Positions 10,732 to 55,543 of a stretch of 57,728 bases of DNA are shown here, piece after piece (position 1 is the stretch's first letter; each line of letters starts with the position of its first letter). The notes beneath the pieces are model-generated. The model was not told where the DNA came from. It saw only the letters and a program-made list of their open reading frames with translations, and searched no databases. The stretch is from a virus. Location of the stretch: positions 1-57,728 of the IMG/VR virus record IMGVR_UViG_3300030430_005103; one strand, given 5' to 3'. The translations under genes and the position numbers were made by a program.

Positions 10732-10732
10732 A

Positions 10733-12309: not shown

Positions 12310-12988
12310 AAACGATATATGTTTAGTTGTCCAGGCCAGAATGGGTTCACAGAGAGTCCCTGGTAAAATGCTTAAGCCTTTCAGCGGCACAACTTTGATG
12401 GATGTATGTTTAGAAAAGCTAAGTAAATCAAAAGTAATTCCAAATGAAAACATCTTCATATCTGTCTGGGAGAAAGAACTTAAAGCAGTAGCCCACCGTC
12501 ACAATTTAAATGTATTTAACAGAAGCGAGGAGTCTGCTTTTTCAGAAGGGACGCCAATGACTACCATGTATGAATGGTGGGATAAACTAGATTTTAAATA
12601 TTGCGTTTTAATAAATGCCTGCGCCCCATTTTTAAAGCTATCGACAATTGAAAAATTTTTCGAATCATATGAAAAATCTCAATCTGACGGAATGTTTGGA
12701 GTGATCGAAAAGAAAAATTATTTTTGGGACAATGATAGCAAATTGATGACGCAGTGGCCAGAGGGCCAAGCTGTTATGAACACAAAATTTGTTGGCAATA
12801 CTTATGAAGCTGCGCATTGTCTGTATGCTGGCAAGATGAGCGATATTGGCAATGGGATATGGATGGGGGATTTTTCTATACCTGGTGATATAGAATTGTA
12901 TCCAATGGAGGAAAAAGAGACTCTAGATATTGATTACCAATGGCAGTTTGACATGTGCGAGGTCTTGTATAATGGAGGGCACAGATAA
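12299..12988 (+). CDS. CMP-nonulosonate synthetase-like cytidylyltransferase
   Basis: A 229-residue protein, the usual length for NeuA/SpsF-type enzymes. The N-terminal CTP-binding signature VVQARMGSQRVPGKMLKPF is at residues 10-28. The acidic metal site near the C-terminus is ETLDIDYQW. It would activate a sugar acid with CTP, giving the donor used by the adjacent sialyltransferase-like proteins. The Q-A-R-M-G-S signature is closest to the SpsF branch, so a related sugar acid is also possible. The start lies 11 nt inside the preceding gene. Confidence 0.85.
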   Translation: MKNKNDICLVVQARMGSQRVPGKMLKPFSGTTLMDVCLEKLSKSKVIPNENIFISVWEKELKAVAHRHNLNVFNRSEESAFSEGTPMTTMYEWWDKLDFKYCVLINACAPFLKLSTIEKFFESYEKSQSDGMFGVIEKKNYFWDNDSKLMTQWPEGQAVMNTKFVGNTYEAAHCLYAGKMSDIGNGIWMGDFSIPGDIELYPMEEKETLDIDYQWQFDMCEVLYNGGHR

Positions 12989-14457
12989 TGTTTTATATTT
13001 TTGAAATGGCCAACAACCACCAAGGCAGCGTGGCACACGCTAAATTAATTATTGATAAATTCTCTAGTGTGGCTAAGCAAAAGAAAATAGATGCCGCCAT
13101 TAAATTACAATTTAGACAACTTGATTCCTTTATTCATAAAGATTTTAAAAAATCAGATTTGAAGTTTGTCAAAAGATTTAATTCGACTAGACTGACTAAA
13201 AAACAATTTCAAGAAATAATTCAATACACAAAACAAAAAGGTTTGTTACCAATGGCAACTCCATTTGATAATGAATCCCTACATTGGCTATCAGATTTAA
13301 ACGTTCCGATAGTCAAAGTGGCTAGTTGTTCTATTGACGACTGGGTTCTTTTAGAAGAACTGTCAAATATAAATAAAAAAATAATTATTTCTACTGGCGG
13401 CGCCTCAATAAAAGTTTTAAAAAAAGTTTATGATCTGTTTAAAAGTAAAAAAAGAGATTTTGCTTTTATGCATTGTGTTGGAGAATACCCAACACCAATA
13501 GAAAATTCAAACCTAAATAGAATTACACTTTTAAAAGAAACGTTTCCAGATATTGAAATTGGATTCTCAACTCATGAGGCGCCTCAAGCTAAAACAATGT
13601 GCCCACACGCAGTTGCCATGGGTTGTACAATTATTGAAAAACACGTTGGTGTTGAAACAGAAGAAATAAAATTAAATTTGTATTCAAACACCCCGGAGCA
13701 AATGGCCAACGTTATAGATGAGGTTGGTTTGATAGAAAAAGCTATGATGGGTGTGTCAAACAGTGAAAAAGATTCCTTATCTAAGCTAAAAAGAGGCGCA
13801 TATGTCAAGAAAACATTACCAGAGGGCACAGTTTTAAAAAGGGAACATTTTTATTATTGTATGCCAAAGCAAGAAAATCAATTAGATGCATCTGATTGTT
13901 ATAAATTGTTTGATAAAAAACTTAAAAAGAAAATTGAAAAAGATGCGCCGATAACTGCTGATCACATAGACAACGAACACTCAGAATTAATATTACAAAT
14001 CGTTAAAAAAGCTAATAAAATTTTGAATAATTCAAAAGTTCCAATATACGGAAACGAAAAAGTTGAAATATCATGCCATTACGGGATAGAGAATTTTTTC
14101 AAAAAAGGCGCCTTAATTATCGATAAAATTAACAGAGAATATTGTAAAAAGATAATTGTAATGTTTCCAGAACAATCTCACCCTGTTCATAGACACATAA
14201 AAAAAGAAGAGGCTTTTGAGTTGCTGAGTGGAGATTGTACTTTAAATTTAAACGGCACAGATATAACTCTTAAAAAAGGAAAACCGGTTTTGATAGCTAG
14301 AGGTGTAAACCACTCTTTTAAATCTAAAAACGGATGCGTCATAGAAGAAGTTTCCACTACTCATGTGATAGGAGATTCAATTTATACTGACCCCTTAATC
14401 AACAGTTTAAAAACCGAAGAAAGAAAAATAAAAATAAGTTTAAAAGAAATACTATAA
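12988..14457 (+). CDS. NeuB-SAF-cupin fusion, second nonulosonic acid synthase
   Basis: A 489-residue three-domain protein. Residues 1-245 are a NeuB barrel (FEMANNHQGS, KLQFRQ, MATPFD, KVASCSIDD, ISTGGAS, MHCVGEYPTP, GFSTHEAP and IIEKHVG). Residues about 260-330 form the SAF domain (RGAYVKKTLPEGTVLKREHF). Residues about 380-489 form a cupin with metal-type histidines (PVHRHIKKEEAFELL, then RGVNHSF). It is quite unlike the first NeuB, so the phage carries two different synthases. The cupin might isomerise or bind the sugar. Its ATG overlaps the preceding TAA by one base. Confidence 0.88.
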   Translation: MFYIFEMANNHQGSVAHAKLIIDKFSSVAKQKKIDAAIKLQFRQLDSFIHKDFKKSDLKFVKRFNSTRLTKKQFQEIIQYTKQKGLLPMATPFDNESLHWLSDLNVPIVKVASCSIDDWVLLEELSNINKKIIISTGGASIKVLKKVYDLFKSKKRDFAFMHCVGEYPTPIENSNLNRITLLKETFPDIEIGFSTHEAPQAKTMCPHAVAMGCTIIEKHVGVETEEIKLNLYSNTPEQMANVIDEVGLIEKAMMGVSNSEKDSLSKLKRGAYVKKTLPEGTVLKREHFYYCMPKQENQLDASDCYKLFDKKLKKKIEKDAPITADHIDNEHSELILQIVKKANKILNNSKVPIYGNEKVEISCHYGIENFFKKGALIIDKINREYCKKIIVMFPEQSHPVHRHIKKEEAFELLSGDCTLNLNGTDITLKKGKPVLIARGVNHSFKSKNGCVIEEVSTTHVIGDSIYTDPLINSLKTEERKIKISLKEIL

Positions 14458-29566: not shown

Positions 29567-29989
29567 GTGGCCTTAACTTCAAGTAAAAATAAAACATTTG
29601 GTTATGATGCTGTTATACCGTTAAATCAAGATACATCTGACTTGTTTTATGAGCTTCATAAAACACTAAAATCAAAAGTACAACAAAATTTAAGAATGCT
29701 GTTGTATACCTCTCCTGGTGAAAGAATTATGATACCAAATTATGGTGTTGGGTTAAAAAGATTTCTATTTGAGCAATCTCCAGAATACTTGATAGATGAT
29801 AGAATAAGACAACAGGTATCTATTTATTTACCGGAGATTACAATCACTTCTTTAAACATTTCGCGTGATAACGCGCTGGCCATAAAAACAGGCGCCACAA
29901 ATAATTTGTCTGTGGAATTGATATATGTGATAAATGGCACCAATGTACGTGATTCTTTAATAGTTGTTGATGAATTAACTAAAGTTTAA
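29567..29989 (+). CDS. 25: gp25-like baseplate wedge protein
   Basis: A 140-residue protein of the GPW/gp25 family. It starts at GTG 29567 after ATAAGGAG. The family core is intact: NLRMLLYTSPGERIMIPNYG at residues 41-60, with the conserved GER turn, then VGLKRFLFE. T4 gp25 is 132 residues and sits in the inner baseplate wedge contacting gp6 and the sheath initiator region. The gene is directly followed by the gp6-like gene, as in other contractile tails. Confidence 0.93.
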   Translation: MALTSSKNKTFGYDAVIPLNQDTSDLFYELHKTLKSKVQQNLRMLLYTSPGERIMIPNYGVGLKRFLFEQSPEYLIDDRIRQQVSIYLPEITITSLNISRDNALAIKTGATNNLSVELIYVINGTNVRDSLIVVDELTKV

Positions 29990-30007
29990 CGAGGGATTTT
30001 TAAAAAA

Positions 30008-31804
30008 ATGGCAGAGAAAAAACCAGCAATAAATTATACAAGCCGAGATTTTACAACAATAAAATCAGACCTAGTTGATTATGCTAGAAGATACTATCCT
30101 GAGACATTTAGAGATTTTTCTGTAAACTCTTTTGGTTCTCTGATGTTGGACACTGTTTCATATGTTGGTGACATTCTTTCGTTTTATCTAGATTATCAAG
30201 TTAATGAAACTTTTTTATCAACTGCGTCAGAGTATGACAATATATTAAAAATATCCAGACAGTTGGGGCTTAAGCCAGATTTATCACCAGCATCATTTGG
30301 TGTTTTGACACTTTTTGTATTAATCCCGGCAGGTACAAATGGCGCCCCTAACTATGATTACGCCCCCACTTTAAAAGCCGGAAGTAAATTTTCGACTACT
30401 GATGGAAAATTATACACTTTGCTAGAAGACGTTAATTTTAAAGACATTGAACAAAATGAGATAGTGCCTGGTCAAATCAACAACCAAACCTCCGTGCCAA
30501 TTTCATACGTCATTAGGGCTAGAGGTCAAGCTGTTTCTGGAGAATTATTAACTCGTACCATAGAGGTAGGAGCTTATGAAAGATTCAGAAAGGTGGAATT
30601 ACCCGGCACAAATATAACAGAGGTAGTTTCAGTGGTAGACACTGAAGGTAATCCATATTTTGAAGTAGATTATTTAACTCAAAATATTATTTATGTTCCG
30701 ATACAAAATACTGGCCCAGACCGAGCAACTGTAGCAAACATTTTAAAACCTATAGCTGTACCCAGAAGATACACTGTAACGAAAGAAAGAGGTTCTCTGT
30801 TTCTACAGTTTGGTTTTGGTACTAATGAAGATAGCGAAGAGGTACTGGACCCATCAAAAGTGTTGGTTAATCAGCACGGCAAAAAATATATTTCTGATGA
30901 CTCATTTGATCCAGCAGCGCTGGTTAAAAGTGATAGTCTGGGTATTAGTCCTTCAAATACTACATTAACTATTATTTATAGGGTTAACACAACAGAAAAT
31001 ACGAATACGTCCGCAAATAGTATTATAAATGTCAGAGATAGTATTATGAGCTTTCAAAATGAATTAGAATTAGACATTACACTGGTTCAAAACACAAAAG
31101 ACAGTTTGGAGGTTATAAATGAAACAGCATTTGTGGGCTCTGCTCCCTTGCCAAACTCTGATGAACTAAAACAAAGGGCTTTTGGTGTTTATTCAATGCA
31201 GAACAGAATAGTGACTCAAGAGGATTTAGTAACGGCTGCCTATAATATGCCCAGCTCTTTTGGGTCAATATCTAAAGCTTCAGCACAACAAGATTCTGAT
31301 TCTTTCAATCAAAGAAATATAAACTTATATGTAATGGCTCGTGGCGCCGATGGAAAGCTTCAAAAAGCCAATCAAACTATAAAAAATAATTTAAAATCTC
31401 ACATCTCTAGATATAAAATGATTAATGACTCAATTGATATATTGGACGCAAACATTATAAATCTTTCGTTATTTTATACAATAGTTGCCTATCCAGATGT
31501 TGATAAATTTAGAGCCATAGATACATCGAAGAGAGATTTGAGTGTGTTTTTTGCGAGACGTAGAGATTATGAAATCGGAGAGTCCTTTTCGATAACAGAT
31601 ATTTTTAGTGTATTAAAAAACTCTGCGCTAGTTTTAGATGTGGTTGAAGTAAGCGTGTTAACAAAAACCGGGCCGCTACATGCTGATACAGGTTTTATTG
31701 CCGAGAATAACTTATCCGCCGATGGTCGATTCATTACTTGTCCATCAGATTCTATTTTTGAAATTAAATTTCCGAATAATGATATTATAGGGACAATTAA
31801 ATAA
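30008..31804 (+). CDS. 6: gp6-like baseplate wedge protein (baseplate J family)
   Basis: A 598-residue protein. The N-terminus (INYTSRDFTTIKSDLVDYAR, FGSLMLDTVSYVGD, FYLDYQVNETFLSTA) is typical of T4-like gp6 proteins. The middle contains the J-like segment SDELKQRAFGVYSMQNR and TQEDLVTAAYNMP. T4 gp6 (660 residues) is the wedge ring protein partnering gp25 and gp7. It starts 18 nt after gp25 behind GAGGGA and overlaps the next gene by one base. The call is firm at family level. Confidence 0.92.
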   Translation: MAEKKPAINYTSRDFTTIKSDLVDYARRYYPETFRDFSVNSFGSLMLDTVSYVGDILSFYLDYQVNETFLSTASEYDNILKISRQLGLKPDLSPASFGVLTLFVLIPAGTNGAPNYDYAPTLKAGSKFSTTDGKLYTLLEDVNFKDIEQNEIVPGQINNQTSVPISYVIRARGQAVSGELLTRTIEVGAYERFRKVELPGTNITEVVSVVDTEGNPYFEVDYLTQNIIYVPIQNTGPDRATVANILKPIAVPRRYTVTKERGSLFLQFGFGTNEDSEEVLDPSKVLVNQHGKKYISDDSFDPAALVKSDSLGISPSNTTLTIIYRVNTTENTNTSANSIINVRDSIMSFQNELELDITLVQNTKDSLEVINETAFVGSAPLPNSDELKQRAFGVYSMQNRIVTQEDLVTAAYNMPSSFGSISKASAQQDSDSFNQRNINLYVMARGADGKLQKANQTIKNNLKSHISRYKMINDSIDILDANIINLSLFYTIVAYPDVDKFRAIDTSKRDLSVFFARRRDYEIGESFSITDIFSVLKNSALVLDVVEVSVLTKTGPLHADTGFIAENNLSADGRFITCPSDSIFEIKFPNNDIIGTIK

Positions 31805-33657
31805 TGGGAATTAAAAGATATTACGCTACAAAAGATAATACGATTACAAACGCTTTTAAATCAAGTTTGCAAACCCGCGGCGTTAGCGGAAACATGGGCC
31901 AGTCTGACATCCTAGAGGTTTTTAGTATTTACGCTCAGGTTAGCTCAAGTACTGGGTTATCCTCAGAACTATCGCGAGTACTAATTGAGTTTGACACAGC
32001 GGCAATAAATTCAGATAGATCGACGGGCGTTATCCCGGCATCTGGTAGTGTTAACTTCTTTTTAAAAATGTATGACGCAGAACATACACAAACTACACCA
32101 AAAAATTACACCCTGTTGGTTCAGCCAATATCTCAATCTTGGAATGAAGGTCTTGGTCTTGACATGGAAGAATACTCAGATGAAGATGCGTCAAACTATA
32201 TTTCTGCTTCTAGCGGTGTTCCTTGGGCAGATATTACCGGTAGAGCTACTGCCTCAATTGAAACCGTAGCGAAGGAATTGCTTACTGCGGGGACGTTTAC
32301 ATTGACAGACGCTGCCGGAATCTCAACAACATATAAGTTTGTGACAGGTGTGAATGTATCGGCAAACACTACAGCGTATACTCCTGGTACCACTATCAAT
32401 ATTGGTATCGACGGTATGGCCGGGGGTGATGCGGGAGCCACCGCAGATCAAACTATTGCACGGATTAATGCCGGCACAAATATCGGCTTTACCGCATCAA
32501 AGACAGGTAATAATGTTCTTGTAACCCAGAATACTGCTGGTACCGTAGGCAACAAAACGAACACACAGGACTCAGGCATGGGCTCTTTCGTTGTAAATAG
32601 TTTCACCGGCGGAACTGATGTTGAAGGTGGCAGCTATGTTGATAGCGCAGAATATACTTTTACTCAATCTTTTGACACAGGTTTTGAAGATCTAGAAATA
32701 GATGTAAGTCACTTAGTTGAAGATTGGATTAAGGGACCTAGTAGTAGCGGGTTAAACAACTTTGGTTTTGGAGTTCGCCTGACGGGTTCAGATGAAACGG
32801 CAACAGATTCGTTTTACACTAAAATGTTTTTCGCTCGTGGTTCACAATTTTTTCATAAGCGTCCAGTCATTGAGGCAAGGTTTGACGACACAAAAAAAGA
32901 TAATCGCGGTGATTTCTTTTTAAGTTCATCATTAGTACCAGCATCTGACAACTTAATGAATCTTTATCTTTACAATGTAGTCAGAGGTCAACTAACAGAC
33001 ATTCCAGCAGTTGGGACAGGAAATATATTAGTTAGTATATATAGCGGCAGTACTGAACCATCTGGAAGTAAACTTTTTCTACCTGAAGGCGGTGGTGTGG
33101 TGGCCTCCGGAGATCTTAATATAACAGGATCTCATGTAGAAACCGGTATATACTCGTGTTCATTTGCTTATGCTTCATCGAGCATAACAACAATATTTGA
33201 TGTATGGCACAGTGCTTCAGTAGAATACCATACTGGCTCGGCCATTAAAGTACAGACATTCAATAGTCAAAATTATAACTTCGATCAGAGATACGTGTCT
33301 AAAGTCACAAACTTACGACCGACGTATAGTAGAGATGAAAAGGTCAGATTTAGACTTTACACTCGTCAAAAAGATTGGTCTCCGACTATTTATACAGTAG
33401 CGAATAACGAAATAGAAACAAGTATAGTTGACAATGCTTACTATCGCTTTACTAGAGTGAGCGACGATCTAGATGTTATTCCATTTGGGACTGGTTCCCT
33501 AAACCACACTCGACTATCTTATGATACGAGTGGTAGCTACTTTGATTTAGAAATGAACTTGTTCGATACTGATACTGTATACGAATTGTCTTTTTCTTAC
33601 TTAATTAATGGCAGCTACGTTGAGCAACCAGAAAGGTTTAGGTTTAGAGTAGAGTAA
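31804..33657 (+). CDS. Virion protein with CBM96/DNRLRE-like domain and an inserted module
   Basis: A 617-residue protein overlapping gp6 by one base. Residues about 1-320 resemble a DNRLRE/CBM96-like beta-sandwich (YYATKDNTI, SRVLIEFDTAAI, LLVQPISQSWNEG, VPWADITG, then IDVSHLVEDWIKG). Between VPW and GGSYVDSAEYTF, residues about 145-273 look like a separate beta module (FTLTDAAGISTTYKFV to VVNSFTGGT). The remainder is further beta-rich modules. A structural role in the baseplate or fibre region is likely. It has no T4 counterpart I recognise at this place. Confidence 0.72.
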   Translation: MGIKRYYATKDNTITNAFKSSLQTRGVSGNMGQSDILEVFSIYAQVSSSTGLSSELSRVLIEFDTAAINSDRSTGVIPASGSVNFFLKMYDAEHTQTTPKNYTLLVQPISQSWNEGLGLDMEEYSDEDASNYISASSGVPWADITGRATASIETVAKELLTAGTFTLTDAAGISTTYKFVTGVNVSANTTAYTPGTTINIGIDGMAGGDAGATADQTIARINAGTNIGFTASKTGNNVLVTQNTAGTVGNKTNTQDSGMGSFVVNSFTGGTDVEGGSYVDSAEYTFTQSFDTGFEDLEIDVSHLVEDWIKGPSSSGLNNFGFGVRLTGSDETATDSFYTKMFFARGSQFFHKRPVIEARFDDTKKDNRGDFFLSSSLVPASDNLMNLYLYNVVRGQLTDIPAVGTGNILVSIYSGSTEPSGSKLFLPEGGGVVASGDLNITGSHVETGIYSCSFAYASSSITTIFDVWHSASVEYHTGSAIKVQTFNSQNYNFDQRYVSKVTNLRPTYSRDEKVRFRLYTRQKDWSPTIYTVANNEIETSIVDNAYYRFTRVSDDLDVIPFGTGSLNHTRLSYDTSGSYFDLEMNLFDTDTVYELSFSYLINGSYVEQPERFRFRVE

Positions 33658-33658
33658 T

Positions 33659-36600
33659 ATGTCCTTAAAAGATTTATTTAAAGAACAAAATTATAAATAT
33701 CTCGGAGGCACCGCGGTTAATTCTTTAACCTCTAGTGGCGTGGAATCAGCAGAATTTATAGAAAAGTTTATAGAGGACAGGGATAGGTTTGTCCCGCTCA
33801 TAGATTATTCCAAGCCGGCCAATTTTGCTAGATTTGGATCTGCAGAAAAATATTACTATGATTCAATAAAAAGAACTTACGAAACCTATCCTTATGATGG
33901 CTCTAAAAAAGAAAAAATACTTTGGGAACTTTCTTCATCTAATCTAGATTTATATCTTTTTGAGAATGGATATCCAAGAACCACTGGTTACGCAGTTTTC
34001 TCTAACACTAGTGTCACCGCTACAGCTACCTCAACAAATTATAGTATATGGGGCTCTTATGGCGCTGCCGGTACTGGAACTTATGAATATGTTTCTTTCA
34101 ATGGAGGTCCTCATCCCGGCCAGGGAAATAAAATATATATTGATCCAGACACCGGTGAAGCACACTATAGAAAAAATGCTAACATATATGATTTATCAAA
34201 GAATAGAGAGTGTAACCTAAAGATAGGTGGAAACGATGGAAATACAGTAGAGTTTTGGCTTAAAAAAGCCGCTTTTGATACTGACGCTACCCAAACAGAG
34301 GTTATCTTTGATATCTTCACCACAAGTTCAATTTCTTCAAGCGCTGATTACGGAAGACTTACGGTTGAGATGTCTGGCCATGGCGCAGATACAAACACTT
34401 TATCTCCTTTTTATGTGACTTATATGTCTGGTACCAACGGCATATCAAAACAAAACATTGGCGCCTCTTTGACGACCGCTTCTATTGCTGATGACAATTG
34501 GCATCATTACTCACTTAGATTTAAAAACACCGATTCAAATGTCTCAGTTGACCTTTTTGTTGACGGTAAATTTAATCATAATGTCACAACAGGTACAACT
34601 GTAGATTATGTTAGTGGAACAATTGTTGGAACAATTGGTGCTTTAGCTACAAACCCATCGGGTACCACTATCCAACCACAGGCCGCCAAAGGCTGGGGTA
34701 AGCTTTCTGGCTCTCTAGATGAGTTTAGATTTTGGAAAGTCTGGAGAAATTCAAGCCAAATCCAAACTAGATGGTTTGATCAAGTCGGCGGGGGTACCAA
34801 CACTGATGAGGCAAATACCCATTTAGGTCTTTACTATAAATTTAATGAAGGTATCACAGAGAAAATAGAAACAGATTCAAAAGTGTTAGATTACTCTGGA
34901 AGAATTAGTAATGGCAGTTGGGTTGGATATTCAAGTGTCTATTCCAGAGAAACCGGTTCTGCGATTAATGAATCTGGGTTGACATCTTATACAGCAACAG
35001 AGTTTCAAGATCCGATATTATATTCATTTCATCCACAAGTTTTTTCTTTTATGGAAGAAAAAAGAAAAGAAGGTAAAGAGTATGATTATACAAATCCATC
35101 AACAATTTATTATTCTCTACCATCATGGATTTTAGAAGAGCATGAAACCAGCAAATCTGATGGCGATGGTATAATATCAAATTCTTTATGGAATCTAACT
35201 CAAATAATAAGTAGCTATTTTGACAATGTGTCAAACATGATGGACTCGGTGCCTCAACTAAGCCAGACTGATTATTTTAGTGGCTCTTTTAAACCAACTC
35301 CTTTCATGAGTAGAATTTTGGAGTCAAAAGGCTTTATAGCGCCAGAGATATTTAATGCGATAGAAGCTTTAGAATATTTTGAAAACAGAGATAACAACAG
35401 CATTTACACTGAAAAAATTTCAAATGTTAAAAATATAATTTATAAAAACATCTATAATAATTTGACTTTTATTAATAAATCAAAGGGGACTGAAAAATCA
35501 CTTAGAAACCTTATTCGTTGTTTCGGTATAGATGATCAGATATATAAATTAAATTATTATGCCAATAGTGTTGATTTTATTTTAGAAGACAACCACCGTT
35601 CCATCTCAAGCAAACTGAAACTAATTAATTTTAATACAATTAACAATTCAAATGCCTCAGTTTATCAATACTCTAGTAGCTTAAATCCTAACAGTAGGAC
35701 ATTTATATCAGCTAGTAAGAATTTTGATCCTGCCAGTTCAGTTGAGACTGGTTTGCCGTTTTCTGTTGAAGCTAATGTAGTATTTCCAATTAGAGTCGAT
35801 GAATCAAAGTACAATACCTTAGCACAGGGCGCCACTTCGCGGACATATAATTATCCCTTATTTATTACTTCCAGTCTTTTTGGTATGCACACGGCCATAG
35901 ACACAGAACCAGAAAGTACAACTTGGAATTCCAACGACTATGCTAACTTTGTTGTTAAAGCAATTAAGTCTAAAACTTTCTCTAATAAAGCAAAATTCGT
36001 ATTAACAGGGACATTGGGAGGTTTTATCCCAGAGTTGTCCTCTTCATACGTTGATGAAGTGTATAATGATTCAAATTGGAGTTTTTTGGTTTCTTTATAT
36101 TCAAAAGCATATCCGAATGCTACCCAAGTAGACGGCACTTCGACATCCGATTACGTTGTTCAATTTACTGGTATTCAAAAAGTCTTAGAACAAACAATAA
36201 ATGAGTTTACGGTAACAGGCACAATCACAGCAAATGAGGCAACTAAGTTCTTAGCCTCTCCAAAAAGAACATTTGTTGGAGCACATAGAACTAACTTTAC
36301 TGGTGCTTTGCTTCAGCAGTCAGATATAAAAGTAAACAACTTTAGAGTTTGGCAAAATAAATTAACCAAAGAGGACTTAAGCTTACATGCTTCGGATCCA
36401 ACAAACTACAGCATTAAAAATCCGGAACAAAATGCTTTTCTATTTAATGAATCTTTAAATGAGGTTTTTATACCCAATAAAGAAACTTTGTTGCTACATT
36501 GGGATTTTTCCACTGTGACTGGCTCCGACTCCGCTGGAAATTTTATAGTTGAAGATCTAACTTCTGGTTCAAATGATCAAATATCTAGGTATGGTTATTT

Positions 36601-39600
36601 AAACAACATTTCCAATAAACAGTTTACTGGTCTTGGTTTTGAATTTGCTGCTAATAGCACTGATGTTATATTTAAAGATGATTTTATTACTTCTAAGCAA
36701 AATTTACCAGAGACGATAAGTAACGAAGACACTGTTAAAGTGCTAACTAATGATGATATATATTATTATAGAGATATTCGACCAACGTTTTTTGACTTAT
36801 ATATAGAAAAGAGTCCATATCAAAACATTTCTGAGGAGATGTTAAAATTTATGTCAACGGTGGTTAGCTTTGCTGATCTTTTTGGTCGACCAATAGATAG
36901 ATATCGTAGTGAATATAAAGCACTTAACACATTAAGACAATTGTTCTTTGAAAGGATGGATACTCCAAATATTGAAAAATACATGGAGTACTTTAAGTGG
37001 TTTGACTTAGCGGTAACTGCAATGATTCAAAAACTAGCTCCAATGTCTTCTGGGTTAGATGAAAGGCCGCTAAGAAATATTATCGAATCTCATATTTTAG
37101 AGAGAAACAAATACGAGTCAAAATTTCCAACTTATGAGTTTAAGCAAAGTGACCCAGAGGGTTCTCTGTTTGGTATTAGTGAACTTACGTATCCATGGAA
37201 AGAGGGTCACGCCCCAGTAGGGGTTACAGTTGATGATGAACACCAAGATGATAACTGTGTTTGGTTTAAAGAGAGGGTAGAAAGAGGCACTGTTGTAACC
37301 AGTGGAGATTCAGCTGTTGATTCTGATAGACAAGAAATACTTAATGTTATCAACAATCAAAGTAACGCGACACTTCCAAACCTAAGTGGGTCAAGTGGAA
37401 CATATCAAGGATCTACATATGCTTTGCGCAGGTTTGCCCGACCTTATAAGGCCACTGCGCAAAATCAACCCCAAATACATGGCGGTGGTAATGGATATCA
37501 AAATAAGAAAGTTGGTTTTTGGGATTCAATTAGAAAGCGACCCACACCATCCTTACCCGGTGAAGGCGGCCTAATCTCAATTGAACCACCTGATTCAAAT
37601 CTTGAATCCTTTAAAAAGTGCGAGGACAACTTAGAATTAAATAAGGGCAAAAGAAAGTTTAAATTCTCTGCCGGGGTAGCTATTGACGGTGAAGAAAACT
37701 TTAGTGAGATATTTAAAGGTGATCTGGTATTTCCATTTAGTTTTTATAGTTCCTCAGTCACAAGCAATCCGGCCATGGCCGATCTAGCTGATTTTCAAGC
37801 AAATCTAGCTATAACCAACCTACATCACGACAGTTACGGTCCCTTTAAAGACGTTCCAATGCAGGGGCCATTTACAGAAAAATATGTAGGCGGCCGCTCA
37901 TATCGTCATGTAATGACAAACTTTACAGTAGACAATGAGCAGCCTGAAGGTGAAGGTGAAAGATTAGAGGGCTGGCGCCTGACTGCTTCAGCTGATGCTC
38001 TGGATTTGGTTAATGTTTCTCCGCATAATCCAAAATCTGTTTATTTCAGAGAGGAGTACGCAAAGCGACCGGTAAACATTAAAAATATTCAGCAAACAAC
38101 GGGCGCTGCTGAAATAGACTCAGAAACTTCATTCGCTCAAGGCACCGACGCAGCCGCAGTAACAAAGATAGGAAATTACACAAATACTTACGAAATTGTA
38201 ATGACTAATGGTCGTTCAATGAATAATCGCTATTTGGCAGAATCTGATGGACTCTTACCCACTAGCGGCACTGAGTCAACTACGGTTTCTGATATTGTTG
38301 ATTTTACGTTGCCTCGCCGTGACTTAACTGGATCTAACAAGTCGATCATTGTAAATCGTTTCTCAGCTCCAGGTGATCCCTCTACGATGGCCGAAGGTAT
38401 GCTAGATGTAGCTGCCGCAGAATTTAGTGTTTACAATGCGCTGCCTTTTAGAAATTTGTCTGTGCGACAACCCTTACAAGAGCTTTTAACTGATCACACA
38501 AATCAGTTTGGATTATTTAGTGACGCAAGAACTGTAGCAGACTTTGCCTTGTATAATGAATTTCATGATAGACAAGAAGCTTACCCTGGCGGTTCTTCCT
38601 CTATCCACGATCCAGATGATGGAAGTGGAGCCTCTTATCAAGGCACAGGCTCATTTCATAAAGTTAATAGAAACGCAAGAAAACAAATATTGTTTAGTGG
38701 ATCGACTGATGTTGCTGATGACAATTATTTAACAGTTACAAAAAATGATAATTTCTTTGTCCAGCACCAGATACCACAGACAGATGTGCAATATGCTTGG
38801 ATTACAGCGAGTCTAGTCAACAACTACACTGGTTCTGCGCTTTATGGATTTGAACAACCAGATTTTAGTAACGCTAGTCTTGCGTCTACCGATTTGACTT
38901 TTATTGAAAAAGGGGATCATGTTGCATACACTCGACGGTTTCAAGGTACATCTGAGACTTTCCCCAATAAGATACTGCTCTGGGGGGCCGATGAAAATTT
39001 CCTTCCAGCTACGGCATCCTTTGGTATACAAACGGCTCTTCGTGAGTCTACATACTTTGTTGACTTTGTTGGATTAAATTCCATTATTAATGAGCCAGTT
39101 TCTTCTAGTGAAAACACTTTAGGGTATCCAAGTCTCACTTTTACTCCCGTTGAAGATCTTGGCGTAGGCGATGAGTACCTTAGAGGAAATTTTAACTATA
39201 TCAATCCGGATACCATTGACGGGCGGTTCGTGGGCGGCGCCTGGATCGAGGGATTCATGATGGGAGGCGTCTTTCGAGTTGCTGGCGGACCTGCCCTGTT
39301 AAATGCGATTAATTTAAATAGAAATGGTCCATATGGTGGGGCTAACTGGAAACTTCATAGAAAGAGTGGCCACCCTGTGGTACGCACTCACAGAAAAGAA
39401 AATAGGTTGAGCTTCTTAAACTTCTCTCAAGTGGTTGGAAGTAATGGTCAAACAAATACTTTAACATCAATAGATTCTGTTATTGAGCCGCCCATAACGA
39501 GTAAATATAAGCAGTTAACCCATCTCGTCACTTATAGCCCCGCTCCCATTACAGTCGATAACCCGGGCGAATTAGTTAAAATTAATCACTCGTATATGAA

Positions 39601-42600
39601 CAATATTCGCTTCTTTACTGATCACGAAATTGATGATATTGACTTGGATGATAAGCTTTTGTCACCGAAGAGAAATATAAAAACAGAACAGCAAACGTTA
39701 GACATAATAAACTACTACCTGTTTAAGACAGATCATTTTGAAGGCGTTGACAAACTGAATCCAATAAAAGATTTACAAAGTTATATAACCAGAGAAACAG
39801 TCTATCCAAGAGAACAGTTCACTTATCTATCAAAAGTAAGACAAAGAGAAAATTATCAAAATGGCTTCTGGAGAGATAGTCGTGAAGAGAGGCATAATAG
39901 TGGAGTAAGCACTGTGGTCCGCCCCACGGATGGGTTTCCGAACCAAGCATCATCACCATTTTTAGGAACATTTACCACGCAGCTCGCCTCGCTCCCTACT
40001 TCGGAGCCTTTTGTCGATGGAGGTTCTTTAACAGCTAGTATTTGGCCTTTAGACGCTAGAAATGATTTTGTGACAAATTCTCCTGGTAGGATTAAAATTG
40101 ACACTGGGGAAGGTGATTTCAACTATATACCAAACTCCGACGTTTTGTACATACTTCGACCACCAGTATCTGCCTCTAGTGACGCGGCAGGTATTTTACA
40201 AAATAGTGTTTATCCATATTCAGTATATACTGCTGTAACCGGCGGCCTTTTTTCTGTCACTGGCAGCGGTGGCTCTAGTTTCTTTTCTTTTTTTGGTGAG
40301 CCAAATCCACCTCCACCGGACTTTCAGTATATTACTGGAATGCATTTGCTGCCTCAATACAATAGAAGAGTGGCCGCTATAATTCCAACTGATCCGGATC
40401 ATGAATATAAATTTGGTGACACTAAATGGGAAGCCGGAGAACAGTCGGGACTGGCTCCATTTTATGATACTTATGATGAATATGTTGATGATATTAAAAG
40501 AATTGCTAAAGATCACAGTTTGATTCCTGAATTTAGAATATCTGAGCACATGGACTATTATCTCAATGAAGCTCCTGAAGGCTTTTTAACAAAACCTGTT
40601 GAAGATAAATTAGGCTCGAAGGATTTTCTAGAAATAACAGGCGCCGCAATACAAGGAAGTGGTACTGGTAGCTTTGCTAGCACGTACTCCCATACAGACT
40701 TCTTAAAAACATTTTCAATTGTAAGTGATTTTTACGGAGATAAATCAACACCATCTAGAATAACACTATCCGCAGATGCGGTGTTAAAGTTTTTACCTTA
40801 TGATGGTTTTTATCCAGCAGATCGAACAGTTCAGGTAGCTAAACTTTTTTGGGAAAGTTATTCCTCCAGTTTTGCAATTGAGGGCAATTTAATAGCCGGC
40901 TTCGACGCAACACCGAGTAAACTTGATGTTGGAGATCTGATTAACCCAGCGGTAGCCGGCGCCATTAACCCAGTTTGGAAACCCTTATTTGCTCCTGGTA
41001 TACTTTATAATAGTATTAAATCTGGAATCGCAGTCGATTATCCGGTACATACCGGTTCTGCTATAGACGTGGCTTTTACTGGTGCGCCAAACCAAAGAAT
41101 ATCAGCCTCTTATTTAATAGATGTTCCTAGAATCACCACGGATTTTAACTATAGAGTCCCTTTTGAAGCCTTATTGGACCCTGAAGGCGAATTTGGAAAC
41201 AAGCTTTTTGTAGATAATGAACCGCACCCCTCTGCTAGTCTAAATATATCAGCATCATTAGCAGGAGCAGGAAAAGACAATTACAAACTAGCTATGAATA
41301 ATTTTTTAGCGTCAACCATTGACTTTTTCTTACCAGATGGGCAGATGTCAACGATTTCTTCAAAGTTTAGTGATACAGACGGTAATTTCGCCTCACAGTT
41401 TGATCCGGACACCAAAGCACAGGGGTTTCAAGTAGGTAAAGAGTATAGGATGAGATTAGTTTGTTTTAATGGTAGAATACAAAGTAAAAAAGAGTATGAT
41501 GACTTACTTGGAGATTTAATAGCATCTTCTGCCGGTGCCACTCGCTACTATTTCTCTGCCTCTTATGATTTAAATCCGCCAACTTGTGTTATGTACGCTC
41601 AAACTGGAGCCATTGCCGGCGACCATAATAAAGTAGCTGACTACTATGGATCATCTTTTGGACCTCCTGTTGCAAGTATTCACTTGGCGCAAAACACTAG
41701 CAATTCACGAGCTGCTGCAATCCCTAGTGGTAGAAGAAATTACGGAAGCGCGTCCTTTGAACCGTTTACGCCGCCTTATTACAATGGATATTCTCATATA
41801 GAATATATTTTTAGGCCACAAGTTGATTCTGATTTCCACAGTTTGCCAATTATATTAGATCAATTAACTCAATCTTATGAAAGATCAATGCTAGGTGAAG
41901 CTGGTTTCCCGTGTGAACCAGGATCTTTTGTTGTGCCCGTTGCCGGCGCCGCATCTACGGCAACTAAAAACGCCATGGTTATGACCGCTAGTTTCGATCT
42001 CTCTTTAAGCAAGCAGTTTTCAGTAACTACTGATGCTGATGGCAACCCGCTGGAAGTTGATCAAGATGCAAACAAAACTGGTTTTGCCTTGACTTTCCAA
42101 CCAAAATGGGAAACGCCGATATTGGACTTTAAGAATGCGAACGTTACACTTCCAACAATTGGATCTGCTTCGGTTGCTCAAGGCATGTGGCATCAATATG
42201 GCGTCAAACCCAAGGGGAAAGACGGAATTTATTTCCAAATACAAGATCTAGACTCGGCCGAGAAAGCAACACCATCGATGACTGGCTCTCTGGCTTTACA
42301 GCTTGGCCTTCCAACAACAAAAGTTAAGCTTGGTCGAGTGGCTCCCGTGAAGAAAATATCTGAGGCGATAGTCGCTATTCCTCATTATATTAATGAAAAC
42401 AATGAAGTATCAAAGTTTCCGATACCGTTGGGTTTTATAAACACAGCAAAAGAAATTGTTAAAAAACAAAACAAAGGTGTTAATACATCAGTGGAAAGCA
42501 ACTTTAGCCCTGATAAGTCTATTGTGGACATGGTAGATAAAATGCAGAGATTTGTTATCCCTCCGCATCTTGACTTTGTGACAAATGACTCAATAAAGCC

Positions 42601-43378
42601 ATTTGCGATGTTTATTTTTGAATTTAGTCATGATTTGAGCGAAACTGATTTAAGTAATATTTGGCAAAATTTAAGTCCAAATATAGCAAGAAAAGCTAAA
42701 ACAGCAAAAGCTACTTTACCGGTTGATATTCTTCCGTCCGCGCCCGGTGAAGATTTCGGTGGGCCTCCTCGCTCGATCATGAATAGATTTCCAGCAAGCA
42801 CCCGCTGGGTTGTTTTTAAAGTAAAACAAAAATCAGCAACGAACTATTTTGAAAAAACTGCTAATTCGGTTGACGATGATAAATTTAAATTTAATTTTAA
42901 GTTTAATGAAAATGAAAAAATAGTTCCATCCTTTAGCTACAATTGGCCATACGACTTTTTTAGTTTAATTGAATTAGGAAAAATAGATGCCAATGTAGAA
43001 AACAAACGCACTGAACCGATTAAACAACCAGGCGGTTATGAAGTAGCCGAGGGCACTGGGGTTATTGAGGCTAAAACAGACTTAGTTAACATACCAGAAA
43101 TTGCACCAGAACCACCTCCAATTGATGAGGCAGATGAGCCCGAAACCAGTCCACAACCCACAGTCTCACCGCAGAGCCAGATCGCAGCAGCCGCACAAGG
43201 CATCGGATCTGCGGGGAGTTCACAAGGCAACGCAGGCGCCGCCCTTCCAGCTGCGCCGGCCAATGAAAACACCGGTGGCGGTTCTGGAACTCAATTTGGT
43301 CTTCCAGAAACGACAACGGAGCTTGATACTGGACCAGGAAACTTCACGCCTCCAGGTGGAGGATATTTTGGCGGCTAA
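33659..43378 (+). CDS. Giant (3239 aa) baseplate/fibre protein with LamG-like modules
   Basis: One open gene of 9.7 kb, the largest in the window, starting 1 nt after the preceding stop. Residues about 176-372 form a LamG/concanavalin-like module (TVEFWLKK, DDNWHHYSLRFKN, DEFRFWKVWRN). A second, more diverged one spans about 693-945 (FSVEANVVFP, NNFRVWQNKLTKEDL, LLLHWDFS). Between them (about 600-640) lies KSKGTEKSLRNLIRCFGI, which resembles a stretch found in tail-protein-I-type baseplate proteins. The last 120 residues are Pro/Gln/Ala/Gly-rich. LamG modules bind glycans or proteins, so host-surface contact is plausible, but a wedge role like T4 gp7 is equally possible. Confidence 0.75.
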   Translation: MSLKDLFKEQNYKYLGGTAVNSLTSSGVESAEFIEKFIEDRDRFVPLIDYSKPANFARFGSAEKYYYDSIKRTYETYPYDGSKKEKILWELSSSNLDLYLFENGYPRTTGYAVFSNTSVTATATSTNYSIWGSYGAAGTGTYEYVSFNGGPHPGQGNKIYIDPDTGEAHYRKNANIYDLSKNRECNLKIGGNDGNTVEFWLKKAAFDTDATQTEVIFDIFTTSSISSSADYGRLTVEMSGHGADTNTLSPFYVTYMSGTNGISKQNIGASLTTASIADDNWHHYSLRFKNTDSNVSVDLFVDGKFNHNVTTGTTVDYVSGTIVGTIGALATNPSGTTIQPQAAKGWGKLSGSLDEFRFWKVWRNSSQIQTRWFDQVGGGTNTDEANTHLGLYYKFNEGITEKIETDSKVLDYSGRISNGSWVGYSSVYSRETGSAINESGLTSYTATEFQDPILYSFHPQVFSFMEEKRKEGKEYDYTNPSTIYYSLPSWILEEHETSKSDGDGIISNSLWNLTQIISSYFDNVSNMMDSVPQLSQTDYFSGSFKPTPFMSRILESKGFIAPEIFNAIEALEYFENRDNNSIYTEKISNVKNIIYKNIYNNLTFINKSKGTEKSLRNLIRCFGIDDQIYKLNYYANSVDFILEDNHRSISSKLKLINFNTINNSNASVYQYSSSLNPNSRTFISASKNFDPASSVETGLPFSVEANVVFPIRVDESKYNTLAQGATSRTYNYPLFITSSLFGMHTAIDTEPESTTWNSNDYANFVVKAIKSKTFSNKAKFVLTGTLGGFIPELSSSYVDEVYNDSNWSFLVSLYSKAYPNATQVDGTSTSDYVVQFTGIQKVLEQTINEFTVTGTITANEATKFLASPKRTFVGAHRTNFTGALLQQSDIKVNNFRVWQNKLTKEDLSLHASDPTNYSIKNPEQNAFLFNESLNEVFIPNKETLLLHWDFSTVTGSDSAGNFIVEDLTSGSNDQISRYGYLNNISNKQFTGLGFEFAANSTDVIFKDDFITSKQNLPETISNEDTVKVLTNDDIYYYRDIRPTFFDLYIEKSPYQNISEEMLKFMSTVVSFADLFGRPIDRYRSEYKALNTLRQLFFERMDTPNIEKYMEYFKWFDLAVTAMIQKLAPMSSGLDERPLRNIIESHILERNKYESKFPTYEFKQSDPEGSLFGISELTYPWKEGHAPVGVTVDDEHQDDNCVWFKERVERGTVVTSGDSAVDSDRQEILNVINNQSNATLPNLSGSSGTYQGSTYALRRFARPYKATAQNQPQIHGGGNGYQNKKVGFWDSIRKRPTPSLPGEGGLISIEPPDSNLESFKKCEDNLELNKGKRKFKFSAGVAIDGEENFSEIFKGDLVFPFSFYSSSVTSNPAMADLADFQANLAITNLHHDSYGPFKDVPMQGPFTEKYVGGRSYRHVMTNFTVDNEQPEGEGERLEGWRLTASADALDLVNVSPHNPKSVYFREEYAKRPVNIKNIQQTTGAAEIDSETSFAQGTDAAAVTKIGNYTNTYEIVMTNGRSMNNRYLAESDGLLPTSGTESTTVSDIVDFTLPRRDLTGSNKSIIVNRFSAPGDPSTMAEGMLDVAAAEFSVYNALPFRNLSVRQPLQELLTDHTNQFGLFSDARTVADFALYNEFHDRQEAYPGGSSSIHDPDDGSGASYQGTGSFHKVNRNARKQILFSGSTDVADDNYLTVTKNDNFFVQHQIPQTDVQYAWITASLVNNYTGSALYGFEQPDFSNASLASTDLTFIEKGDHVAYTRRFQGTSETFPNKILLWGADENFLPATASFGIQTALRESTYFVDFVGLNSIINEPVSSSENTLGYPSLTFTPVEDLGVGDEYLRGNFNYINPDTIDGRFVGGAWIEGFMMGGVFRVAGGPALLNAINLNRNGPYGGANWKLHRKSGHPVVRTHRKENRLSFLNFSQVVGSNGQTNTLTSIDSVIEPPITSKYKQLTHLVTYSPAPITVDNPGELVKINHSYMNNIRFFTDHEIDDIDLDDKLLSPKRNIKTEQQTLDIINYYLFKTDHFEGVDKLNPIKDLQSYITRETVYPREQFTYLSKVRQRENYQNGFWRDSREERHNSGVSTVVRPTDGFPNQASSPFLGTFTTQLASLPTSEPFVDGGSLTASIWPLDARNDFVTNSPGRIKIDTGEGDFNYIPNSDVLYILRPPVSASSDAAGILQNSVYPYSVYTAVTGGLFSVTGSGGSSFFSFFGEPNPPPPDFQYITGMHLLPQYNRRVAAIIPTDPDHEYKFGDTKWEAGEQSGLAPFYDTYDEYVDDIKRIAKDHSLIPEFRISEHMDYYLNEAPEGFLTKPVEDKLGSKDFLEITGAAIQGSGTGSFASTYSHTDFLKTFSIVSDFYGDKSTPSRITLSADAVLKFLPYDGFYPADRTVQVAKLFWESYSSSFAIEGNLIAGFDATPSKLDVGDLINPAVAGAINPVWKPLFAPGILYNSIKSGIAVDYPVHTGSAIDVAFTGAPNQRISASYLIDVPRITTDFNYRVPFEALLDPEGEFGNKLFVDNEPHPSASLNISASLAGAGKDNYKLAMNNFLASTIDFFLPDGQMSTISSKFSDTDGNFASQFDPDTKAQGFQVGKEYRMRLVCFNGRIQSKKEYDDLLGDLIASSAGATRYYFSASYDLNPPTCVMYAQTGAIAGDHNKVADYYGSSFGPPVASIHLAQNTSNSRAAAIPSGRRNYGSASFEPFTPPYYNGYSHIEYIFRPQVDSDFHSLPIILDQLTQSYERSMLGEAGFPCEPGSFVVPVAGAASTATKNAMVMTASFDLSLSKQFSVTTDADGNPLEVDQDANKTGFALTFQPKWETPILDFKNANVTLPTIGSASVAQGMWHQYGVKPKGKDGIYFQIQDLDSAEKATPSMTGSLALQLGLPTTKVKLGRVAPVKKISEAIVAIPHYINENNEVSKFPIPLGFINTAKEIVKKQNKGVNTSVESNFSPDKSIVDMVDKMQRFVIPPHLDFVTNDSIKPFAMFIFEFSHDLSETDLSNIWQNLSPNIARKAKTAKATLPVDILPSAPGEDFGGPPRSIMNRFPASTRWVVFKVKQKSATNYFEKTANSVDDDKFKFNFKFNENEKIVPSFSYNWPYDFFSLIELGKIDANVENKRTEPIKQPGGYEVAEGTGVIEAKTDLVNIPEIAPEPPPIDEADEPETSPQPTVSPQSQIAAAAQGIGSAGSSQGNAGAALPAAPANENTGGGSGTQFGLPETTTELDTGPGNFTPPGGGYFGG

Positions 43379-52755: not shown

Positions 52756-54336
52756 ATGGCTACTACATTTAAAACTTTATTAAACAGCGATATCGCAAAT
52801 ACAAGAACACTTCTTCATGAGGCAATTCCAATCACAGGAACAATCATTTCAGGTACCTACGAGGACGAGAACATTAAGACGTTCGCTCATGGTATGTTCG
52901 AGGCAGTTTTTGATTATCCCTACTTAAGTTCATCAGCAAATCATATTTTTGATATTTCTGCCGGATATGCTTCTGACAGCATATTATCTGGAGCGGCCAA
53001 CACCCAAGGTAAGAAAAAAATGAACATATATAATCAACACGCTCAGGTGTTGGTTGGCTACGATGTTAGTGGAAATATTCAAAATTTTGACAGAGATGGC
53101 AACACAGGCACTACTGGTGATCAAATGAAAGAGTGTTTCTTTATTAATTTTTCTAGGCTTTTAACAAAGGATGAAATAAAAAAAGATTCATTCAGATTAG
53201 GGATGTTTGCCTCTTCTAGCGCAGTTAATGGTATAGTTGATGGCGGCGCCGCACTAACCACAGGCGTTAGAAATCAGCTAGAAGTCATTGGAGATTATGG
53301 CGCAGCGACAGAATATAAAGTTAATTCTCCTGCTGGAGAATTTGGATTGCTTTATAGTAGTTCTGCAACTCCACGAAACACCAACAATAATCCTCCAATT
53401 GGACACATTTATTACCAAGCTGGAATCGCAGTTATTACGGCATCTTTCTTTTCAGGTGCTTTCGGTGATCCGTCTAGCACAGCCGATAGAACCCAGTCTA
53501 GCGGGGAACTTGGAGTACAAGCATCCAGAACGGACGCAGTTTCTCTTGCGGCTGGCCCAGTAACCGCCGATGAGACAATTAGTATAACTTTCCCAGCTGG
53601 TTATCCCACCCTTGCTGAGACCACGGTTCAATTTGTATTCAAAAGCGCTGGCGATGTAAATACGGGAACACCAGATATCAATCAGGTTTTTGTAAGCCAC
53701 GGAGGTAGTGAGTCAGATAGCGCGACAAACTTTAGAAAAGCAATTAATGGTATAACCAATAATGATGGATCTGAAGATGTTAAATTTGGATCTAATCCGG
53801 CGTTTACTGATGGCAGCGGCTTTCAAATTCCAAACTTAACTGCGGCCGTAGGAAGCACCGCAGCGAAAGTTACGATTACTGCAGCCATCCCCGGTGGTAT
53901 TGGTGCCACTGGTAATAGCGTTGAATTATCAAAAACTGGTTCAGACATAACCATACTAAGTCCACTACAAAATGGTACTAACGCAGAACTGGCAGTAATG
54001 AATCGCTTGACCGGCTCAACGATTACTCAATTGGCAAATGGCTTTCGTTATAATTATGAAAATCTAGATTTTAATAATACGACAGAACTCAACTCAACCA
54101 TATATTTCTGTCGTGCTAATACTCAAGATTACAATTATAGTGCTAATCCAACTTACTTAGATGCGAGTGAGATTAGAGTTAAAAATAATAACCCCAAAGC
54201 CCAACCGGTTGCTTATATCACGACTGTTGGTCTTTACGGCTCTGATAATGAGCTTCTTGCTGTCGCAAAGTTATCAGAACCTTTAAAGAAATCACCTTCG
54301 AATGAAATTACTTTGAGGGTCAGACTAGACTACTAA
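52756..54336 (+). CDS. Tail protein with an inserted module, paralogue of the next gene
   Basis: A 526-residue protein with AAAAGGAA before ATG. Residues 1-236 and 410-526 are alignable to the downstream 401-aa protein; the shared C-terminus includes NYSANPTYL, AYITTVGLYGSDNELLAVAK and LRVRLDY. Residues about 238-410 interrupt this and resemble the insert in the 31804 protein (VQFVFKSAGD, SATNFRKAINGI, KVTITAAIPGGIGATGN). The insert DNA is visibly richer in G and C than the flanks. A structural tail role is likely; T4 equivalence is not clear. Confidence 0.75.
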   Translation: MATTFKTLLNSDIANTRTLLHEAIPITGTIISGTYEDENIKTFAHGMFEAVFDYPYLSSSANHIFDISAGYASDSILSGAANTQGKKKMNIYNQHAQVLVGYDVSGNIQNFDRDGNTGTTGDQMKECFFINFSRLLTKDEIKKDSFRLGMFASSSAVNGIVDGGAALTTGVRNQLEVIGDYGAATEYKVNSPAGEFGLLYSSSATPRNTNNNPPIGHIYYQAGIAVITASFFSGAFGDPSSTADRTQSSGELGVQASRTDAVSLAAGPVTADETISITFPAGYPTLAETTVQFVFKSAGDVNTGTPDINQVFVSHGGSESDSATNFRKAINGITNNDGSEDVKFGSNPAFTDGSGFQIPNLTAAVGSTAAKVTITAAIPGGIGATGNSVELSKTGSDITILSPLQNGTNAELAVMNRLTGSTITQLANGFRYNYENLDFNNTTELNSTIYFCRANTQDYNYSANPTYLDASEIRVKNNNPKAQPVAYITTVGLYGSDNELLAVAKLSEPLKKSPSNEITLRVRLDY

Positions 54337-54337
54337 A

Positions 54338-55543
54338 ATGCCTTTATACAAATTTGGTCCAAAAGATATCCTTAGAAATAGGATCAAAACCTATCCGAAC
54401 AATACCTTCTTTGTTCATAGCGCTAGTATATATTATGGCAACAGAAATCAGATTACGGGTGCCTTTGTAGATAATGTAACTCATGTTCCTACTGGTTTTG
54501 TTAGTCTGTATGAATTAAATATTGATAGAAAGTTTTCAGATCATACGTATGATCCAGATACAAACACCGGCAAAAAAACTAAAATATTTCCTTTCATATC
54601 AAAAGATTCGTCTTTTAATTCTTTCGCCACAATATCAACAAATAACTTTAATCAATTCCAATATGGTGATATAATAACAGGTAGTTATCCTTTTTCTGCT
54701 TCAATAACCAGAGAAACATTTGATGCTGGTACAAACCCAACCGGTTCACATCTGTTGGCTTTAAAGAACACTTTAAATTATTATAAATCTCTAAGCCCTA
54801 ATTATGCTTTTTCATCTTCATTAAGAGACTTAGCAACAGATGATGTTACACTGATTAGTATACCTAGCATTTTTTATGGTTCTAACATTCGTAAAAATTC
54901 TGTTAAACTAGATTTTTATATCTCTGGCACCTTGGTTGCTAGTTGTGAAGACTTGTATAGAAATGGAGAGCTGATACAAACTAGCGGCACTGCCCATGCG
55001 CAATCAAACGGCTCGGGATCTGTCGCCGGAGTAGTGCTTTATAACGAAGGTTTTGTGTTACTAACTGGAAGTTGGAGCTTAACTGAAGAAAATTATGATT
55101 TCGGACCAGCACCGAACCGCACCGGTCAATGGACTGATTTTGCGGCTGGGGCCAATGATGGCCTTTCTCCCGCTGATTTAACTTTATCAGCCAGCTTCGC
55201 TTTAAATTTTCAAGGTACGAATTATATTAATACTATGACTATGAATTGTGATGCTCCACTTGGAGAGTTAAACTACTCGCCAAATCCTACGTATATGACA
55301 TCTAGCTTGTATGGGGCGTTTTCAAGTAAAGAAGGTTATTTTCAAGATAATAAAATTGCGGTTAAAAATACAATTAGCTCTTCGTTTTACAACTATGAAG
55401 AAGATTTTAAACCACAGACATTTATAACAAAGATAGGCATATACGATAAAGATAAAAATTTGATAGCTATAGCCAATCTCGCGAAGCCAATTAAAAAAAC
55501 CGAAGATAGAGACTACACATTTAGATTAAAACTAGATATTTAA
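54338..55543 (+). CDS. Tail protein, tandem paralogue of the 526-aa protein
   Basis: A 401-residue protein directly after its paralogue (1 nt gap); the Shine-Dalgarno is weak, so translation may be coupled. The C-terminal 90 residues mirror the neighbour: NYSPNPTYM, QTFITKIGIYDKDKNLIAIA and KPIKKTEDRDYTFRLKLDI. VLYNEGFVLLTGSW corresponds to IYYQAGIAVITASF. It lacks the inserted module and so shows the ancestral form. It ends the tail block. Confidence 0.75.
   Translation: MPLYKFGPKDILRNRIKTYPNNTFFVHSASIYYGNRNQITGAFVDNVTHVPTGFVSLYELNIDRKFSDHTYDPDTNTGKKTKIFPFISKDSSFNSFATISTNNFNQFQYGDIITGSYPFSASITRETFDAGTNPTGSHLLALKNTLNYYKSLSPNYAFSSSLRDLATDDVTLISIPSIFYGSNIRKNSVKLDFYISGTLVASCEDLYRNGELIQTSGTAHAQSNGSGSVAGVVLYNEGFVLLTGSWSLTEENYDFGPAPNRTGQWTDFAAGANDGLSPADLTLSASFALNFQGTNYINTMTMNCDAPLGELNYSPNPTYMTSSLYGAFSSKEGYFQDNKIAVKNTISSSFYNYEEDFKPQTFITKIGIYDKDKNLIAIANLAKPIKKTEDRDYTFRLKLDI

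Follow-up and report, generated by a model that had tools for sequence, protein, structure and literature searches.

An in-frame insert in a baseplate-region protein of an uncultured contractile-tailed phage as a probable member of a mobile domain superfamily related to the tail sheath extension domain

The window, by which we mean the whole stretch of 57,728 nucleotides analysed here (IMG/VR record IMGVR_UViG_3300030430_005103), is a fragment of the genome of an uncultured contractile-tailed phage. Two plus-strand genes at 29567..31804 code for a gp25-like protein that matches Pfam GPW_gp25 (E 5e-13) and for a gp6-like baseplate wedge protein that matches PHROG 219 (E 2e-16), which identifies the operon as part of the baseplate region of a contractile tail. 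The order of genes from there is a 617-aa protein (31804..33657), a giant 3239-aa protein (33659..43378) and a series that ends with proteins of 314, 526 and 401 aa, the last two at 52756..54336 and 54338..55543; all four genes with coordinates lie on the plus strand. The 617-aa and the 526-aa proteins each carry an insert, and the 401-aa protein is an insert-free paralogue of the 526-aa protein. The named phages nearest to the window, as judged by the 526 family, are the Flavobacterium immuto phages, Microcystis phage Mel-JY01 and Rhodothermus phage RM378, in which the members of the family are hypothetical proteins; immuto and RM378 point to Bacteroidota as the likely hosts. Elsewhere in the window, a cluster at 6513-14457 comprises genes for two glycosyltransferases, two NeuB-family synthases (one fused to a cupin) and one cytidylyltransferase, and looks like a phage-borne nonulosonic-acid pathway. 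A gene for a trypsin-like protease (2029-2784) is the sole long minus-strand frame with a family match.

The insert in the 526-aa protein spans residues 259-412 (about 154 aa; 53530..53991, plus strand) and is in frame; the empty site in relatives, a profile match and composition all mark it. We refer to it as a class 2 module. Close homologues of the host protein were found at eight loci on viral contigs and represent seven distinct proteins. They are 350-376 aa long and, at all eight loci, the alignment has nothing opposite window residues ~259-412, hence the limits given above. A DNA alignment with locus L001 agrees, in that similarity picks up again at GCAGTAA..AATCG. Two of the loci (L003 and L004) come from different samples, and their proteins are identical over the compared locus; we therefore count them as one virus and not as independent evidence. 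The site is also empty in Flavobacterium phage immuto (337 aa) and in Microcystis phage Mel-JY01 (357 aa). A wider search of viral contigs gave more than 580 matches, and in the best 80 the site is empty as well; a few of the 80 are repeats of the same contigs, and rare further occupants are possible. Insert-free homologues as a whole measure 320-403 aa, both limits being open-frame lengths. Among about 90 homologues, then, the insert is private to this contig. The stretch at the insertion site is 11-57 residues long in the distant homologues and the best 80 matches, as against 186 in the window; the site is a loop that naturally varies in length. The original prediction had put an insert at 53467-53986 (residues about 238-410), breaking a region shared with the insert-free 401-aa paralogue. 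The insert is borne out, with slightly narrower borders, and so is the shared region: BLASTP of the two paralogues detects similarity over the C-terminal ~100 aa only, and profiles of the two families built without the insert align over 205 columns (Prob 99.7, E 2e-26), with the insertion site inside the alignment.

The GC content of the insert is 45%, compared with 37-40% in its flanks. This excess is explained by the richness of the encoded protein in Ala, Gly and Thr, since third-position GC is unchanged (0.31 in the insert, 0.30-0.31 in the flanks), and there is therefore no sign of a recent foreign source. We saw no flanking repeat or mobile-element gene at the junctions, and the donor of the copy was not found. 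Bacterial and archaeal genomes scanned with a consensus sequence (A7) yielded no relative and, at that sensitivity, no cellular source. When conservation was sorted by secondary structure, no contrast between loops and strands emerged.

The insert in the 617-aa protein, a class 1 module, comprises residues 148-273 (32245..32622, plus strand) and is absent or replaced in relatives. It is present in the related genomes G001, G002 and G004 and cleanly absent from the homologues in G005, G006 and G007; the site is occupied in most of the copies seen. Between G001 and the window, identity is 87% in the module and 88-90% in the flanks. In G002 and G004, the module is only 41-43% identical within flanks that are 84-88% identical, suggesting that in these phages it has either been exchanged or changes far faster than its surroundings. 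The 617-aa protein itself has a weak match to the NCBIfam family DNRLRE_dom (E 0.004, below the curated cut-off), a domain that the class 1 module would interrupt.

That the same mobile module had entered these two structural genes was proposed from short shared motifs, all of which were found (VQFVF and YKFV; ATNFRKAIN and ATADQTIARIN; VTIT..GGIGATGN and VLVT..GTVGN; NGT and GGT). To compare the inserts as families, we used five class 2 sequences (A5) and 27 class 1 sequences (A6). Their profiles align end to end over 111 columns (hhalign Prob 95.6, E 1.2e-8), and scores of 51.6-54.2 compare with a maximum of 16.8-21.0 among 100 column-shuffled controls, which preserve composition and conservation. 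A first comparison based on three class 2 sequences had given a Prob of 4.5, a picture later reversed by bridging copies, and the 526 insert of the window taken singly reaches a Prob of 9 against A6. The link between the 526 and 617 inserts thus depends on relatives of the 526 insert and above all on the two bridging copies at locus L063, which are matched by both class profiles. Class 2 copies found in G016 during a search of 24 related contigs are touched by the class 1 profile.

The module, of about 120-155 aa, has a predicted core of the order strand-strand-strand-helix-strand-strand. AlphaFold2 gave a confident model for the class 1 insert (pLDDT 90, pTM 0.86) and a poor one for the class 2 insert (pLDDT 44). 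Predicted strands and helix agree at 70% of the aligned positions, whereas shifted controls agree at 37% on average and at 50% at most. Since the class 2 model is weak, this agreement supports homology and is not a proof of fold. The fold comparison envisaged at the outset could be applied in part, with a confident fold for class 1 and predicted elements in register. The hhalign register and the low-confidence model together place a predicted helix, DSATNFRKAINGI, at 53710..53748 (plus strand), aligned to the class 1 helix ATADQTIARINAG. The part most conserved across both classes lies at 53836..53943 (plus strand) and consists of the paired strands NLTAA and KVTIT, a G-x-x-G loop and the stretch GNSVELSKTGS. 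On these sequence comparisons, we conclude that the 526 and 617 inserts are distantly homologous, as two divergent classes of one mobile domain superfamily. The proposal of a single shared module holds at the level of the superfamily and does not extend to recent copying between the 526-aa and 617-aa genes.

Among PDB sequences, the class 1 profile pointed to residues 90-181 of the Milano tail sheath (E 0.18). Residues 91-203 of that protein, gp20 (8fop), form an external sheath extension domain, set between segments of the sheath body (PMC10811340); the corresponding outward domain of sheaths, domain III, is structurally divergent (PMC11915804). We built a profile of the sheath extension domain (SED) from eight phages, and it matches the class 1 profile with a Prob of 92.7 (E 4e-7, score 44.9; shuffled maximum 15.0). 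With HMMER, the SED profile matches the module of a 617-aa-family (P3) protein at locus L065 (E 4e-8) and, reciprocally, the A6 profile matches sheaths (E 1e-6 to 2e-3). Class 2 has diverged so far that its own direct match is weak (Prob 17, score 26; shuffled maximum 19). Fold searches with the class 1 model found nothing significant in the PDB (best E 0.34, antibodies being among the best matches). In BFVD, a database of predicted viral proteins, there were 15 matches at E <= 0.001, including baseplate-J-like and uncharacterised phage proteins, and the tail sheath matches were weak (E ~0.05, Foldseek prob 0.90-0.97). On profile evidence, the module thus appears to belong with the sheath extension domain in one superfamily, directly for class 1 and by way of class 1 for class 2. 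It resembles the domain of the Mu, Milano, SfV and ST64B sheaths in the class 1 profile match, in the succession of a helix and T-A..G-V-I-T-L-T-A...G-x-x-G-N strands, and in being an insertion within a conserved body. It differs in that its hosts are proteins of the 526-, 617- and 3239-aa types and not the tail sheath protein, and in that it occupies many sites, in many copies, and is not fixed.

Neither the two inserts nor the 27 class 1 members had a match above cut-off in Pfam, PHROGs or NCBIfam; they were unmatched by the Ig-like families Big_1, Big_2 and FN3 (Pfam, NCBIfam) and by the carbohydrate-binding module families of Pfam. The class 1 model is not an all-beta sandwich, as a 13-residue helix lies between its strands. 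No catalytic or ligand-binding motif was found in the module. Against named phages, tblastn matched neither insert nor two further copies, a result to which low-complexity filtering may contribute, and gave two weak matches (E 5) for a class 2 module of G002. A PDB sequence match to 21nr (TLP-IPT, E 3e-5) was set aside because it is the sum of four repeats of ~10 bits each, none of them significant singly.

Further copies in related phages, which had been suggested as a check, turned up at numerous additional sites, most of them in the giant protein of the neighbouring gene. The superfamily occurs in at least three structural genes of this phage group, those for the 617-aa protein, for the giant homologues of the 3239-aa protein and for the 526-aa protein, and empty sites exist for all three. 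The giant protein is module-free in the window; its homologues carry one to six modules. Class 1 copies are found in the 617-aa family, and many related phages have one to several of them in the giant protein. Numbered as in the window protein, the module sites of the giant protein are ~247, ~320, ~780-838, ~971, ~1187, ~1440, ~1650-1679 and others. Three of these recur (~780-838, ~1187 and ~1650-1679), and each of them is occupied, depending on the phage, by class 1 or by class 2. In G016, a single frame of 4063 aa has three clear class 1 copies, one weaker copy and two of class 2; scans with degenerate patterns for additional class 2 copies led to G002, G004 and G016 only.

A tree was built from 32 class 1 copies. 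Those at site e or at site c clustered no more than under shuffled labels, and sister pairs joined two sites of one genome (G001 e/g, 98/93; G012 e/g, 95/90). For the 617-aa site, the tree requires at least three changes, with one large group of copies that is vertical. Two copies in G016 share 82% DNA identity and an identical run of 53 nt, and their similarity ends at the ATATI... and ...FTGG borders of the module. This pair is direct evidence for domain-sized copying within a genome or for gene conversion between copies. Because copies of the same genome are often sisters and, in this one pair, likeness stops at the borders, we conclude that in the relatives copies move as domain-sized pieces of DNA. 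Together, presence or absence at a defined site and residence in unrelated host proteins characterise the module as a mobile accessory domain.

That accessory domains are inserted in phage tail proteins, and that phages shuffle domains, is well known. Domain shuffling in tail proteins was surveyed, with known ECOD domains as the basis for naming, in a study of contemporary protein mosaicism (PMC10684548), and the module would be a product of the same general process. Ig-like domains (Big_1, Big_2, FN3) are found on the tail tube as well as on further structural proteins of phages (Fraser et al. 2006, as cited in PMC8718954), where weak binding of host carbohydrates is, according to the citing article, proposed and unverified. 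They are promiscuous accessory domains of the particle exterior, as the module may be; unlike them, the module has a central helix, sits within loops at many sites and matches no Ig library family. Carbohydrate-binding modules are inserted in the evolved Dit and neck-passage proteins of phages of lactic acid bacteria (PMC8540738, PMC6669499), and the loop insertion in a conserved tail protein, present or absent among relatives, is the same here, whereas the module matches no carbohydrate-binding family. The BACON arrays of crAss-like phages are also tail-associated and have multiplied by single-domain duplication and horizontal transfer (PMC6949934); the copies of the module, in contrast, are not in tandem, lie at separate sites and in separate genes, and belong to a different fold family.

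The reading that we consider fairly probable as a whole is that the 526 insert is one copy of a mobile domain that decorates the surface and has spread through the copying of domain-sized pieces. The module would fold on its own and stand out from the surface of the baseplate as a lobe. Present in many copies per particle, it might bind weakly and generically to polymers of the host surface, or give the baseplate a different outer shape, and selection by changing hosts would drive the gain, exchange and loss of copies. Surface exposure is suggested by the external place of the Milano domain and by the location of the insert in a variable loop, and a surface-exposed decoration would fit the match to the sheath extension domain. 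These two points, along with the role proposed for Ig-like domains, make decoration, through weak host adhesion or an altered outer shape, seem the likeliest function, one that we hold about evenly balanced against that of a neutral passenger. The reading is weakened by the low pLDDT of the class 2 model, by the low Prob of class 2 against the SED, by the lack of a significant PDB fold match, by the weakness of the BFVD matches to sheaths, by an adhesive role that is drawn from analogy and by the missing donor. It also seems possible, if rather doubtful, that in this virus group the SED-type domain is a self-spreading cassette, copied in frame as domain-sized DNA between non-homologous sites of the baseplate genes of a single genome, with a frequency sufficient for homogenising its copies and refilling the same exposed loops, so that the outer surface would change while the receptor-binding tip stays untouched.

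The module might instead be a neutral or selfish domain that exposed loops tolerate and recombination copies, serving as shape or filler and having no binding role. We regard this as a tentative alternative. Empty sites are common, the module occupies a wide variety of sites, only the window protein among about 90 homologues has the 526 insert, the module shows no ligand-binding motif, and several Ig-like domains of phages, for example in SPP1, are dispensable (PMC8718954). A mere passenger is harder to reconcile with the repeated refilling of the same few sites by different copies of both classes, with the constant preservation of frame and length, and with the 617-aa site, which is filled in most copies and where the module is swapped and not decayed. 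The two inserts could also be unrelated, and alike only as small Gly/Ala/Thr-rich strand-helix-strand folds, as the Prob of the single 526 insert and the poor class 2 model would allow; this is improbable given the full-length match of the five class 2 sequences, the far lower scores of composition-keeping shuffles, the secondary structure in register and the bridging copies matched by both profiles.

Two further explanations concern the 526 locus itself. An insert ancestral to the 526-aa family and lost in relatives is conceivable from one alignment, as a deletion in several lineages. Its absence from the eight close relatives, the two distant phages, the best 80 of the more than 580 matches and the paralogue family would call for many parallel losses, so that ancestry is very improbable and, within the present sampling, refuted. 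A chimera, in which the insert was joined to the contig by an assembly mistake, has in its favour that the contig is metagenomic and the copy single; it is scarcely credible, as both junctions are in frame, the location in a loop is sensible, third-position GC equals that of the host gene and related class 2 modules occur in related phages. The mobile surface decoration described above remains our preferred reading of the insert.

As far as the libraries and the literature searched show, the occurrence of this family in an accessory role is new, although an earlier description is possible; within the same scope, so are its relation to the sheath extension domain and the evidence of copying between sites. 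Domain mobility in phage tails is documented here by a family that is named, defined by a profile and datable; it shows empty sites, exchanged alleles and within-genome copies, and Pfam, PHROGs and NCBIfam have no model for it. If, as this suggests, the outer domain that varies among some tail sheaths is drawn from a larger pool of exchangeable surface domains, its structural divergence between phages would be explained. The clean pairs of genes with and without the module also provide material for asking what such decorations do.

Two observations on related contigs were made in passing. At locus L068 (G023), three frames in a row (681, 841 and 379 aa) carry class 1 modules and have no match among the window's tail proteins, so that the range of host genes is wider still. 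In the giant protein of G001 (L025), residues ~1930-2200 form an extra segment beside the second class 1 module; by eye the segment is LamG-like (TLSAWINAS...RWYHIAVTHDSS), and the window protein is without it. Modules of different types thus seem to use the same region of the giant protein.
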